Shown here: piece by piece, positions 13,171 to 63,814 of the stretch | How the letters are laid out: each line of letters begins with the position of its first letter | How positions within the stretch are numbered: position 1 is the first letter of the stretch | Source: Thermoplasmata archaeon | GTDB lineage: Archaea; Thermoplasmatota; Thermoplasmata; Lutacidiplasmatales; UBA184 | Assembly: GCA_021817605.1 (NCBI GenBank) | Contig: JAKAUN010000006.1 | Location: 62,001-126,000 of the forward strand | Direction: 5' to 3' | DNA: 64,000 nucleotides | Position numbers and translations under genes: made by a program | The notes under the pieces: generated by a model | What the model was told of the DNA's origin: nothing | Seen by the model: the letters and a program-made list of their open reading frames with translations, nothing else | The model's database searches: none

Positions 13171-13845
13171 GTGGAACTTCCCGAGAGCCTGTGGACGCGC
13201 CAATTCACGGTCGACAGGCCGGAGGTCGTGCTCGAGGTTGAGGACCGTCTCGAGCTCGGCGGCGGGGTGACGATGCTCGAGGTCCGCGTGAGCGCCTTCG
13301 AAGGGGGCGGGTGGAGCGAGGAGGTCCGCTCCCTGCCGGGCGTCGAGGACGTGGAGCTGTTGGACGCGGTCGAGGGTTCGGAGACCTTTCGCGTCTTCTT
13401 CCGGGGCCGGACGTTCCTCCCGCTCATGCGACGTCTCGGGCTCGTGCGGCACTTCCCGTTCCCCATCCAGAACGGCGTCGCGACTTGGACGCTCACCGGG
13501 CCCGAGCCCAAGGTGAGGGCGCTGCTTCTGTCCCTCGAGAAGGCGACCGACGGGGTGCGCGTGGTGGCCGTTCGTCACGGCCCGTTCGCGCCGGGCACCT
13601 CGCTCCTGACCCCGCGCCAGCAGGAGGTCCTGCGACGCGCCATGGCGGAGGGGTACTTCGACGTGCCCCGACGGGTCTCGCTCACCGGGCTCGCGGCCAT
13701 GCTGGGCATTGCGATCTCGACGCTCTCCGTCACTCTGGCCGTGATCGAGAAGAAGATCCTCGAGCCGCATGCTGCTGACGCCCTCGGGGGGTTCCGGGGT
13801 GAGAGCCGGTCGACGCCGAGTCGCCCGTTCTCCCGGCGTGGATGA
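13171..13845 (+). CDS. HTH-10 (bacterio-opsin activator-like) transcription regulator
   Basis: A 224-residue protein. Residues 1-150 form an alpha/beta sensor-like region seen in small archaeal Bat relatives (two related beta-alpha segments around LELGGGVTMLEV and VRVVAVRHGPF). The C-terminal 60 residues carry the HTH_10 signature LTPRQQEVLRRAMAEGYFD, then RRVSLTGLAAMLGI and STLSVTLAVIEKKIL as recognition region. The GTG at 13171 is chosen since the family starts at this strand; the in-frame extension to 12961 reads as non-protein low-complexity sequence. A regulator of unknown targets. It faces the divergent DUF488 gene. Confidence 0.82.
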   Translation: MELPESLWTRQFTVDRPEVVLEVEDRLELGGGVTMLEVRVSAFEGGGWSEEVRSLPGVEDVELLDAVEGSETFRVFFRGRTFLPLMRRLGLVRHFPFPIQNGVATWTLTGPEPKVRALLLSLEKATDGVRVVAVRHGPFAPGTSLLTPRQQEVLRRAMAEGYFDVPRRVSLTGLAAMLGIAISTLSVTLAVIEKKILEPHAADALGGFRGESRSTPSRPFSRRG

Positions 13846-16910: not shown

Positions 16911-17019
16911 CGCCCGTGCTGGGATTCGAACCCAGGTCTGAGGCTCCGCAGGCCTCTAGGATAATCCACTGTAGCGGCCCGAGGGTGGATCCTCGGGACC
17001 GTAGCTACCCCACACGGGC
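16911..17019 (-). tRNA. tRNA-Arg(GCG) with a 36-base insertion in the D-loop
   Basis: Minus strand. Acceptor stem GCCCGTG (17019-17013) pairs with CACGGGC ending at 16912, discriminator G at 16911, no encoded CCA. Anticodon arm is GAGGC-CTGCGGA-GCCTC, anticodon GCG. The T-arm is CTGGG-TTCGAAT-CCCAG. Between the D-stem 5' half GGGT plus AG and the rest of the loop TGGATT-ATCC lies an extra segment (about 16969-17004). Without it the tRNA is 73 bases and normal. The insert folds by itself (CCCGAGG with CCTCGGG), and the flanking GTAGC can pair with GCTAC at its end, leaving 3-base bulges, which resembles a bulge-helix-bulge splice motif. Exact ends are uncertain by a few bases because of short repeats. 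Confidence 0.88.
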
Positions 17020-26389: not shown

Positions 26390-28212
26390 ACGACCTCGCG
26401 CCCGTTCTCGTAGAGCGGGACGAACGCCGGCAGCCCAAACCATCCGATCGCCGCGTCGCTCAGCGGGCGCGCGAGCGCGCCCGGGTCGAGCGCCACGCCC
26501 GCATACATCACGGAGTCGATCGCCACGAAGTCGATCGCCGACGGATGAGCCGGGTCAGGAACCCCCACGCTGCGTAGCTCGGCGAAGGCGGCGGCTTGGT
26601 TCGAGCCCGTGAACAGGGCCGGGGTCGTGACCCAGGTCGCCCGAAGCCCGTCGACGCCGAAGACCATCGAGCTCAACCGATGGTCGCTGGCGAGGGTCGC
26701 ACCGGCGGGCAGGGCGATCCCGATCCACATCCACAGCGCCGCGTCGCCGTGGGTGAGCCCCTCCTGGAAGCCGCCGAAATCGGCCTGCGGCGGGTAGACG
26801 ATCGCGGCGTTGGCGGCGAGGACGAGCGCGACGGCGAGGCTCGCGGCCAGCAGCCCTCGACGGCCGGCGCGGCTCTGGGCCCGGGCGACCAGGCGTCCGG
26901 TCCCGACGGCGAAGAGAAGCCCGAGGGGGATGAGCAGGTACTCGACGTGGCGGTCGGGGGCGATCGCGTTGGCGAACTCGAGCACCCCACCGAGCGACGG
27001 GTCGCTCGCGCCGACGGCCGCGAGCAGCAGCATGAGAGCCGCCGACAGCCCGATCGCGCCGAGGAGCGTGAGGGCGAAGGGTCCGAGCCGCGCGGGGGTG
27101 AGCGCCCTTCGGCTGCCCGAGCAGAGGATCCCCACGAGGAGGACCGGTGCGAACCAGAGGATCGCGCCGGGGGCGGTGTGCTGGGTGGTGCCGGGTAGGT
27201 CGACCACGAGCAGCACCGAGACCGCGCCGAAGATCCCCGCGCTGAGGAGAGCGGCATCCCGCACGACGCTCCTATCGCTCGGGACGCGGACCCAGCGCCG
27301 CTCCCTCTGCGCGAGGGGGCGCGCCCGAGCCCTCCGCCAGCGGAGGAGGAGCGCGGAGACCCCGAGGACGGCCAGCGCGAGGGCCTCGAACGCCGCGAAG
27401 CCGACCTGGGGGCTGCCCCCGAACCCGGGAAGGAGCACCTTGGCGACGAACTCCCGGGTCCCGTAGAACCAGAAGAGGAAGGTCCCGGTCACGAACGCAG
27501 CGAGGAAGACGAACTCGCGCCGCGGGAACCGTCGGCTCCACAGGCCCGGCCGCCAGAGCTCGAGGAACAGGATCCCGAACAGCGAGCCGACCGCGAAGAA
27601 GTAGCTCGAGAGGTGGTGCGTGACGACCAGCGCCCCGGCGGTCGGCACGAGGAGCGCGTACCAGCGGCCGTCCCGGCGTCCCTCAACGAGCATCCACCAC
27701 GCCGCGACGCAGAACAGGTCCCCGAGGGCGAGCGGGGCCGGGTGGGCGAGGGAGAAGAGCCGGGGCATCCCCACCGAGCTCATCCCGGCCGCGAGCAGGG
27801 CGACCGTGTCGTGCGGGTAGAGGCGACGGAACAGAAGGAAGAGCGGCAGCACCGAGAGCACGCTCGCCACCGGCACGACGACTCCGAGCGCCGTGAACGG
27901 GTCGAGGCCGAGCGCCCCGGAGGAGCCGGCGGCCAAAAGGAAGATCCCGGGGAAGTCCGGGTAGGCGGTGCCCCAGCCGGCGTAGGCAGCTCCGTGGGGC
28001 AGCGTGCCGGTCGCGACCAGGTCGGAGGTCAGGCGATAGTACTCGCCCGTGTCGGAGCCGAACGCCGAGAAGTTCGCGTACGGCTCGAGGACGAGGAAGC
28101 AGAGCAAGAGCGCAAGCCCGACGAGCAGGAGGAGCGACTCGACCCGCAGCGGAGGGGCGCCGCGCGCGGACCCCGGCGACGGCGAGCTCTCGGTCCGCGC
28201 GGAGCGGTCCAT
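26359..28212 (-). CDS. Large membrane protein, GT-C-like glycosyltransferase or related
   Basis: About 617 residues with a dozen or more hydrophobic segments, beginning at residue 24 or so. The first extracellular loop holds the acidic pattern SAFGSDTGEYYRL, similar to the D-x-E/D-x-Y loop of GT-C enzymes that use lipid-linked sugars. A TVAL-to-PAPLALGDLF region and a final soluble portion of about 130 residues after the last helix also fit. No family can be named with certainty. The ATG at 28212 gives a cleaner N-terminus than the one at 28224. The 3' end overlaps mptE by 31 bases. Confidence 0.65.
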   Translation of the reverse strand: MDRSARTESSPSPGSARGAPPLRVESLLLLVGLALLLCFLVLEPYANFSAFGSDTGEYYRLTSDLVATGTLPHGAAYAGWGTAYPDFPGIFLLAAGSSGALGLDPFTALGVVVPVASVLSVLPLFLLFRRLYPHDTVALLAAGMSSVGMPRLFSLAHPAPLALGDLFCVAAWWMLVEGRRDGRWYALLVPTAGALVVTHHLSSYFFAVGSLFGILFLELWRPGLWSRRFPRREFVFLAAFVTGTFLFWFYGTREFVAKVLLPGFGGSPQVGFAAFEALALAVLGVSALLLRWRRARARPLAQRERRWVRVPSDRSVVRDAALLSAGIFGAVSVLLVVDLPGTTQHTAPGAILWFAPVLLVGILCSGSRRALTPARLGPFALTLLGAIGLSAALMLLLAAVGASDPSLGGVLEFANAIAPDRHVEYLLIPLGLLFAVGTGRLVARAQSRAGRRGLLAASLAVALVLAANAAIVYPPQADFGGFQEGLTHGDAALWMWIGIALPAGATLASDHRLSSMVFGVDGLRATWVTTPALFTGSNQAAAFAELRSVGVPDPAHPSAIDFVAIDSVMYAGVALDPGALARPLSDAAIGWFGLPAFVPLYENGREVVYLVELSALP

Positions 28213-28294
28213 CCGGGGGTGCAACGGACTCCCTTGCTAAAGGGGCATGTTCGAGTCGCCCCGGCCCAGAGGGTCGGACCGGCCGGGCACCATA

Positions 28295-40538: not shown

Positions 40539-40646
40539 TGGGGCTGCCCGAATTTGAATCGGGGTCCCGGGCTCCCAAAGCCCGAAGGATGGACCAGTAG
40601 AGCGGACGGAGGGGCTCCCTCGCGCCCGTAGCTACCCCACAGCCCC
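40539..40646 (-). tRNA. tRNA-Pro(TGG) with a 35-base insertion in the D-loop
   Basis: Minus strand. Acceptor GGGGCTG (40646-40640) pairs with CAGCCCC ending 40540, discriminator A at 40539. Anticodon arm CGGGC-TTTGGGA-GCCCG, anticodon TGG. T-arm CCCGA-TTCAAAT-TCGGG. The D-stem half GGGT plus AG is followed by an extra segment (about 40597-40631) before TGGTCC-ATCC, the same site as in tRNA-Arg. Without it the tRNA is 73 bases. The insert also begins CTACGG and ends CTAC, as in tRNA-Arg. It starts 10 bases after the UPF0179 stop on the same strand, so it may be processed from that transcript. Confidence 0.88.
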
Positions 40647-61555: not shown

Positions 61556-62845
61556 ACCCACGCGCACCGGCGCTCCCGAGAACGCCGGCTCGCTGCCGCC
61601 TCCCTCGAGCTACCGGGCCCTCTTCGCGAACGGCGACTATCTCCGCCTGTTCAGCGCGGGCCTCGCCTCGGTCGCCGGCTCGGCGATCGCCGTCGTCTCC
61701 GTCACCTGGATCGTCGCCGAGGCGACCGGCTCGTTCCTCGCCGTAGGGCTCCTCGGCGCCTCCTAGACGCTCGCCTCGATCGTCTTCAGCGTCTTCGCCG
61801 GGGCCCTGGTCGACCGCTACGACCCTCGTCGGCTGATGGTCGTCTCCGACCTCGTCCGCGCGGCGGCGATGGTGCTCTCGGCGGTGGAGCTGCTCCTCTG
61901 CGGGTTCTCCCTTACGGTTCTCCTCGGAGCCTACGCGGTGGTGGGGGCGCTCAGCAGCCTGTTCAGCCCCGCGGAGAACGCGGCCATACCGCGTCTGGTC
62001 CCGAGCGAGCATACCTCGAGCGCGAACGGGCTCGTGAGCTCGACACGCTCGGCGCTTTGCTTCGCCGGCGCGGGGGCTGGCGGCGCGCTCATTGTCGGCG
62101 TGGGACCGGTCGCGGGCATCCTCGTGAACGCCGCGACCTTCCTTCTCTCGGCCGCCCTGCTCGGGGGGTCCGTCCGGTTCCCGTGGCGAGGCCGGTGGGA
62201 CGCGCGGTGCGGCAGACCTATCTACGGGACATCGGCGCCGGGTTCCGCTGGCTGGTCGGGGCCCGAGGCTTCTTCCAGCTCACCCTCTCGGCGACGGTCT
62301 TCAATTTCTGCTCGACGCTCATCGGCGCCTTCCTCGTCTTCTACGCCACGTCCGTGCTCCACGGCTCGGCGGGGACCTTCGCGCTCCTTCTCGCCTTCGA
62401 GGTCGCCGGGACCGGCGTGGGCGCGCTCCTGGTCGCTCCGACGCGGGCGCTGCGCTTCGCGGGGCTCGCCTGGACGGTCCCCTTGGGCGTGCTCTCCGGC
62501 GCCGTCGCCCAGGCGCTCGCTCTCGCTCCGTCGGCCCCTACCGCCTTCGTCGCGCTCTTCGCCCTCGGGACCTTCGGGGGGTTCGCCGGCACGGCCTGGC
62601 TCACCGCCGCTCAGCCGCTCGTCCCGCGGGAGATGCAGGGGCGCTACTTCGGCATCGACAACCTGGGAAGCGTCGCGATCGTCCCGGCCGCGCAGGTCGG
62701 AGGAGCTCTTCGGCTCGGGGCCTTCGGCATCCTTCCGACCAACCTCGCGGTCGCGGCCGTCTGGACGGTCGCCGGGGCCCTCTTCCTTCTCCCGCGCTCG
62801 CTCCGCGGCCTCGGGGCGCGGGCCGTCCCCTTGCGGAGCGGCTAG
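61545..62845 (+). pseudogene. Broken MFS transporter gene
   Basis: The reading frame from TTG 61545 begins with SYRALFANGDYLRLFSAGL, which is the start of an MFS exporter (enterobactin exporter type). It is stopped by TAG at 61764-61766, then continues in the same frame with VFAGALVDRYDPRRLMVVSDL. Near 62185-62205 a frameshift occurs: the frame that continues with RQTYLRDIGAGFRWLVG is the one starting 62057 and ends at 62845. Two lesions in one gene suggest real decay, though assembly errors are not excluded. About 12 membrane segments are visible over the composite. Confidence 0.85.
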
Positions 62846-63666
62846 CCTCCGTAGCGCCGCCGCCGCAGCTGGAAGGTGCGGATCGCCCGAAGGAACTCAA
62901 GATGGGTGAGCCCCGGCCAGAGCACGTCGGAGAAGTAGAGCTCGCTGTAGGCGGACTGCCAGAGCAGAAAGTTCGAGATCCGCTCCTCGCCGCTCGTGCG
63001 GAAGATCAGGTCGGGGTCGGGGAGGTCGCGGGTGTAGAGGTGGCGGGAGACCGCCTCCGAGTCGATCGCCTCGGGGGTAAGCTTGCCCTCGCTCACCTCC
63101 CGCGCGAGGGCCCGGATCGCCTGGACGATCTCGTCCCGACCGCCGTAGCCTAAAGCGACGTTGTAGAGGTAGTCGGAGTAGTCCCGGGTCGCCGCCTCGG
63201 CGATGTCGATCGCCTCGCGCACGTGCGGGGCGAGCAGCTCGCGGTTGCCGATCACCCGGACCCGGATGCGGTGGCGGTGGACGCGCTCGTCGACGGCGAT
63301 CTGACGGAGGCTGCGGTCGAACAGGTCCATGAGCCCCTCGATCTCCTCGGACGGACGACTGAGGTTCTCCGTGGAGAGGGCGTAGACGGTGAGGATGCGG
63401 ATGCCGAGGTCGAGGCACCAGTTGAGCAGCTCTTCGAGCGTGTCGCGTCCTTTCTCGTGGCCGTTCCGCACGTCGAGCCCGCGGGCTTCGGCGAACCGGC
63501 GGTTGCCGTCCATGATGATGGCCAGGTGACGCGGCACCGGCTCGGCCTTCACGAGCTCGAGGAGCCGCTTCTCGGTAAGGTCGCGCAGCGCGTCGGAGAC
63601 GACCTGCGAGAACGGAGGGACGCGCTCCTTGCGCGGGGGATTCGAGCGGGCCACGGAACCGACCAT
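62842..63666 (-). CDS. uppS: Cis-prenyltransferase (undecaprenyl/dolichyl diphosphate synthase)
   Basis: Makes the long-chain polyprenyl carrier for glycan transfer. The 274-residue product has HLAIIMDGNRRFA (Asp active site), HEKGRDTLEELLNWC, LTVYALSTEN, VALGYGGRDEI and the C-terminal LIFRTSGEERISNFLLWQSAYSELYF (Arg, Ser, Glu). It ends at the last 4 bases of the MFS gene. In archaea the product carries N-glycans, which fits the many N-glycosylation sites of the surface protein. Confidence 0.94.
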   Translation of the reverse strand: MVGSVARSNPPRKERVPPFSQVVSDALRDLTEKRLLELVKAEPVPRHLAIIMDGNRRFAEARGLDVRNGHEKGRDTLEELLNWCLDLGIRILTVYALSTENLSRPSEEIEGLMDLFDRSLRQIAVDERVHRHRIRVRVIGNRELLAPHVREAIDIAEAATRDYSDYLYNVALGYGGRDEIVQAIRALAREVSEGKLTPEAIDSEAVSRHLYTRDLPDPDLIFRTSGEERISNFLLWQSAYSELYFSDVLWPGLTHLEFLRAIRTFQLRRRRYGG

Positions 63667-63709: not shown

Positions 63710-63814
63710 CGCCCTGGTCGGGAGTTCCGGCACGGAGGGGGGACCCTCCGTCGCCTTCGAACCCGAGTCCCAGGCTCGACAGACCTAGATCCTAGACCAC
63801 TAGACTACCAGGGC
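63710..63814 (-). tRNA. tRNA-Asp(GTC) with a 32-base insertion in the T-loop
   Basis: Minus strand. Acceptor GCCCTGG (63814-63808) pairs with CCAGGGC at 63717-63711, discriminator G at 63710. The D-arm is GTCT-AGTGGTCT-AGGA, the anticodon loop CTGTCGA with GTC. The T-stem starts TCGGG-TTCGAA, but the matching T-CCCGA follows only after an extra segment (63724-63755). The segment is a hairpin with ACGGAGGG and CCCTCCGT, 8 base pairs. Without it the tRNA is a normal 73-base tRNA-Asp. No CCA is encoded. A GGTTCATAG element about 30 bases upstream may be the promoter. Confidence 0.87.

Follow-up and report, generated by a model that had tools for sequence, protein, structure and literature searches.

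We analysed a 64,000-nt stretch of DNA (the window, about 71% GC) from the genome of an uncultured Thermoplasmata archaeon, 1.75 Mb in 16 contigs, which is rated 100% complete. Judged by the uppS-like protein, its relatives are Thermoplasmata metagenome genomes, including UBA184. A stem-based scan found three tRNA genes in the window, all on the minus strand: tRNA-Asp(GUC) (63710..63814), tRNA-Arg(GCG) (16911..17019) and tRNA-Pro(UGG) (40539..40646; C12:102539-102646). The uppS-like gene (undecaprenyl pyrophosphate synthase type, a family name given by sequence resemblance) is an open reading frame at 62842..63666 on the minus strand, directly downstream of tRNA-Asp. The same order is kept in relatives, and the gene served as a synteny marker.

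The tRNA-Asp gene is 105 nt long and was recognized from its stems and anticodon loop. The acceptor stem (GCCCTGG/CCAGGGC) and the T-stem (TCGGG/CCCGA) are complete, and the anticodon loop CTGTCGA is uninterrupted. The covariance model R1, which was built from T-loop-interrupted tRNAs, scored the gene at 97 bits, this gene being among the sequences used to build it. The original prediction had placed the interruption within the T-loop, with the 3' acceptor half displaced by 32 bases and an 8-bp hairpin as the insert, and all three points were borne out. Reading from 63814 to 63710, the insert lies between nt 59 and 60 and is exactly 32 nt long (63724..63755, minus strand). It contains the hairpin ACGGAGGG-TCCC-CCCTCCGT at 63732..63751 (minus strand), in which TCCC is the loop. 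The predicted exon 1 (nt 1-59; 63756..63814, minus strand) ends with TTCGAA at its 3' end, and exon 2 (nt 60-73; 63710..63723, minus strand) is TCCCGACCAGGGCG; the boundaries follow from the sequence and the register of a bulge-helix-bulge (BHB) motif.

This motif is strict in tRNA-Asp. Starting at the T-stem and moving inwards, one reads TTCG-AAG-GC-G-ACGGAGGG-TCCC-CCCTCCGT-GC-CGGA-ACT. The 5' strand of the central helix, TTCG (nt 54-57; 63758..63761), pairs with CGGA of the intron (63729-63726), all on the minus strand. This 4-bp helix is flanked by two 3-nt bulges, AAG (63755..63757, minus strand) and ACT (63723..63725, minus strand), which contain the predicted 5' splice site AA|G and the predicted 3' splice site AC|T, and the hairpin of the intron is stacked on the inner side. 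Excision of the intron is predicted to yield a tRNA of 73 nt whose T-loop is the standard TTCGAAT, and 11 loci give one and the same predicted spliced sequence. A canonical 37/38 intron, located one nucleotide 3' of the anticodon, was ruled out by the insertion at 59/60 and the whole anticodon loop. A group I intron was also ruled out, as the insert has just 32 nt and no Rfam match was found at the tRNA-Asp locus. The minimum-energy fold of the precursor was -56.3 kcal/mol, compared with -44.4 kcal/mol for the cloverleaf plus BHB by evaluation. The same program likewise misfolded the predicted spliced tRNA-Asp, so the minimum-energy fold is weak as counter-evidence and was set aside as evidence.

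The other two tRNA genes of the window had been predicted to carry the same kind of insert, and none of the three to carry it in the anticodon loop. All three are indeed interrupted with free anticodon loops, but the inserts of tRNA-Arg and tRNA-Pro are located in the D-arm rather than the T-loop. For the D-loop intron of tRNA-Arg(GCG), a strict BHB motif could be read directly (helix GTAG/CTAC, bulges CT|A and AG|T), and the junction of the D-arm intron of tRNA-Pro(UGG) is approximate. As had been expected of ordinary annotation tools, both ARAGORN and Rfam at the gathering threshold missed the tRNA-Asp gene. The sole ARAGORN call in the window, a tRNA-Gly at 13305-13398, was a false positive inside a protein ORF in GC-rich DNA. 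A tRNA-Ser-like stretch at 28205-28290 (GGACTCCCTTGCTAAAGGGG...GTTCGAGTC) was not counted, because no matching acceptor stem or T-stem was seen; it is possibly a tRNA remnant.

A gene that standard tools do not call may be a decayed pseudogene or an assembly artefact, with another tRNA-Asp serving the cell. The comparison with relatives, which the original prediction had proposed, spoke strongly against this. In those Thermoplasmata relatives whose flanks could be read, the same interrupted tRNA-Asp was found just upstream of uppS. The exons were 97-100% identical, whereas the introns (29-33 nt) were only 50-85% identical, which is the opposite of decay. The intron position was the same in these independently assembled genomes, and the introns kept the fold while their sequences diverged, with covarying stems. 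A second, intact tRNA-Asp(GUC), which would have told against the original prediction, was looked for as well, and none was found among the tRNA matches in the genome. In practice the conservation refutes the pseudogene or artefact reading, and we regard it as extremely unlikely.

The register of the motif was then examined in 97 distinct T-loop-interrupted tRNAs with 18 anticodons from the source and related genomes. The scan that yielded them required only the acceptor, anticodon and T-stems in collected loci. Part of the set came from searches with R1, in which the central helix is modelled; this does not apply to the loci linked to uppS or to most of those from the source genome. Positions 54, 55, 56 and 57 paired with the intron in 96, 97, 96 and 72 of the 97 tRNAs, respectively, related sequences within the set being not independent. 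All four central pairs were present in 71 of the 97, tRNA-Asp among them, and shifting the partner by 1-3 bases reduced this number to between 0 and 2. All 97 had AAN as the 5' bulge and NNT as the 3' bulge, with T60 as the last base of the latter. The pairing of the inner stem exceeded that of all 1000 shuffles at 6/6 positions. Conservation in relatives and the register test together excluded chance as the origin of the tRNA-Asp insert.

Position 57 of this helix covaried with the base opposite. When it was G, the opposite base was C in 59 of 61 introns. When it was A, the opposite base was G in 24 of 36 and U in 12 of 36, and never C or A, yet C is the most frequent base of the introns. This suggests that an A-G pair next to the 5' bulge is tolerated or favoured. 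Within the source genome, A57 is opposite G in 8 of the 14 T-loop introns, and C56 is opposite C in that of tRNA-Asn; not all of these introns are therefore strict BHB motifs.

We listed 45 tRNA genes in the source genome, with intron assignments made by reading the sequences of the match regions and not by a dedicated program; 21 were interrupted and 24 uninterrupted. They contain 14 T-loop, 5 D-loop and 4 anticodon-loop introns, and noncanonical (D- or T-loop) introns occur in 17 of the 45. Twelve genes have a T-loop intron only: Asp, Asn, Arg(UCU), Arg(UCG), Glu(CUC), Gln(CUG), Ala(GGC), Gly(UCC), His, Ser(GCU), Ser(GGA) and Ser(CGA). Arg(GCG), Pro(UGG) and one Met have a D-loop intron without a T-loop intron, and two genes apparently combine both, Lys(UUU) (L041) and Leu(UAG) (L157, G000:C12:4850-5000). 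Anticodon-loop introns were assigned to a Met, Tyr, Leu(UAA) and Trp. The tRNA-Trp(CCA) intron (G000:C8:105144 region, L039) is apparently long; in other Euryarchaeota, the long tRNA-Trp intron houses a box C/D guide RNA. The search with RF00005, R1 and a sequence pattern did not find Ile(GAU), the pattern giving unrelated matches only, so the list is possibly one gene short. Ile(GAU) may be heavily interrupted or lie in an assembly gap. Recent intron transposition was not supported, as the similarity between T-loop introns of different tRNAs in the genome was just marginally above that of shuffled sequences.

The breadth of these introns was surveyed with R1 at E<1e-10. Each of the 62 listed members of the source genome's family (62/62, itself included) gave 6-10 matches, compared with 0-3 in other Thermoplasmata. 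Across six further genera of the family, almost every match was as long as an interrupted tRNA, and a few were intact tRNAs of 73 nt. Some matches beyond the family were genuine T-loop introns, namely in sister families (Arg(CCG), Ala(CGC) and Asp), in Arg(UCU) of single-contig genomes of family f8, and in further cases elsewhere; others were intact tRNAs. T-loop introns were thus rejected as a mark of this family alone, since further families within the order and the class have them too. Our results indicate that site 59/60 is used across much of the class and that the family is enriched: it is the number of T-loop introns per genome, not their presence, that distinguishes it.

Genes with more than one apparent intron were also seen in other families. 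In one genome of another family of the order (G132), the tRNAs of four loci (L195, L202, L209 and L214) apparently hold an intron in the anticodon loop together with a very short one in the T-loop, the latter being 14 nt long in the Asp gene (L195). Lys genes of other families (L253 and L271) apparently combine a D-loop intron with one in the T-loop.

The splicing enzymes were searched for in the source genome. PF01974 matched one 353-aa ORF with two endonuclease domains, which is the layout of an alpha'2 enzyme. This ORF aligned nearly end to end with Archaeoglobus EndA 1r0v (E=1.5e-27), and its second domain has the Tyr/His/Lys triad with the motifs FRAY, HARYLVH and GVRK. By sequence alignment, neither half of EndA has an insert at the position of the CSL/ASL specificity loop in the Aeropyrum catalytic subunit, and likewise no such insert was seen in the aligned EndA of relatives. 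Two PF01974 matches were found in most members of the family and in 15/15 genomes checked across families. RtcB is also encoded (558.9 bits). The presence of both EndA and RtcB bears on the reading that the mature RNA retains the insert in an enlarged T-arm, or that the insert is cut out without rejoining of the halves. All 97 inserts have an EndA-type motif in the same register with the invariant bulges, and their removal always restores a standard T-loop, which makes this reading hardly credible.

Another possibility is that a second, undetected endonuclease of broad specificity, (alpha-beta)2 or epsilon2, removes the introns instead of the alpha'2 enzyme. Such enzymes are tied to noncanonical introns in the literature (PMC4090602, PMC4033280, PMC12397907), and a subunit could be too diverged for Pfam. 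However, PF01974 found just the two domains of one ORF in the genome, and two matches are also the rule in the family. We consider a second endonuclease very unlikely.

Taken together, the strict BHB motif, the perfect spliced tRNA, the conservation and covariation, the presence of EndA and RtcB and the lack of an intact copy favour a spliced T-loop intron. We assign a probability of about 95% to the reading that the tRNA-Asp insert is an archaeal protein-spliced BHB intron at 59/60 in the sole tRNA-Asp(GUC) found in the genome. Splicing, as judged from sequence, is by far the best explanation and almost certainly takes place. In the predicted precursor, T54-T55-C56-R57 would pair with the four intron bases that immediately precede the 3' bulge, and the BHB would stack on the T-stem. 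Cleavage at AA|G and AC|T would then fall to the two-domain alpha'2 EndA and joining of the tRNA-Asp halves into the 73-nt tRNA to RtcB, with the intron being discarded. As the bases paired with the intron are nearly invariant in T-loops, nearly every tRNA can accommodate the motif; this would account for the 14 T-loop introns.

The pairing of T54-R57 with the intron also has a consequence for maturation. Neither the T-loop fold nor its contacts with the D-loop can form before splicing, so T-loop modification and the steps that read the elbow would follow it. We infer, on sound grounds, that splicing comes before the T-loop is modified and the elbow forms, in agreement with the original prediction; the intron should thus hold back both of these steps and probably RNase P processing. 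There is also a consequence for annotation, because many such genes were missed or truncated by the tRNA finders that we used, which can bias estimates of genome completeness.

It is quite possible, though short of probable, that a loopless alpha'2 EndA removes many T- and D-loop introns in this Thermoplasmata family, including those with three standard pairs plus A57-G. If so, the specificity loop would not be needed for noncanonical introns, and the rule of enzyme-intron co-evolution would fail across a whole clade. With a loopless alpha'2 enzyme as the sole type detected and noncanonical introns in 17 of the 45 tRNA genes, either the motif and not the position is the constraint, or this alpha'2 enzyme is broader than thought. 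The published view is reconciled most easily if alpha'2 enzymes recognize the motif rather than the position; the majority of these introns retain it in its strict form. The A57-G pairs in 8 of the 14 T-loop introns of the source genome are the less expected part.

Position 59/60 is among the listed sites of noncanonical introns and is known in Crenarchaeota, and noncanonical tRNA introns have been described mainly from Crenarchaeota and Nanoarchaeota (PMC4090602). In the review view, alpha4 and alpha'2 enzymes process canonical introns only, and noncanonical introns arose with loop-bearing enzymes of broad specificity. A structure paper of 2025 describes alpha'2 enzymes as lacking the loop and having strict motif specificity (PMC12397907). 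In the open-access literature, which was the scope of our search, no prior paper on such introns in Thermoplasmata was found. The tRNA-Asp T-loop intron is of a kind already known, but neither the lineage nor the type of enzyme would have been expected for such introns.

In position, there is a close likeness to the introns of crenarchaeal Thermoproteales, which also use site 59/60, besides neighbouring sites, and a BHB motif and can occur several per tRNA (PMC4090602). Their enzyme is an (alpha-beta)2 type with the crenarchaeal loop, whereas the enzyme here is a loopless alpha'2 in Thermoplasmata. The euryarchaeal 37/38 introns cleaved with alpha'2 EndA (Archaeoglobus, Thermoplasma) share the enzyme architecture and BHB geometry with our case, but differ in position and in number. 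In Euryarchaeota with alpha4 or alpha2 enzymes, fewer than 10% of tRNA genes are said to be interrupted, each by one intron at the canonical position (PMC4090602), compared with noncanonical introns in 17/45 genes here. Korarchaeum cryptofilum also combines noncanonical introns with a homodimeric alpha2 enzyme and was, as of 2014, the only alpha2 archaeon known to do so; its enzyme is said to share a specific loop (PMC4033280), whereas the EndA of the source genome has no such insert. Finally, many noncanonical tRNA introns were reported in 2024 for Asgard genomes, the Atabeyarchaeia and Freyarchaeia, which like the present genome come from metagenomic archaea; they belong to another lineage, with 92-95% of their tRNA genes interrupted and more than half carrying several introns (PMC11291895).
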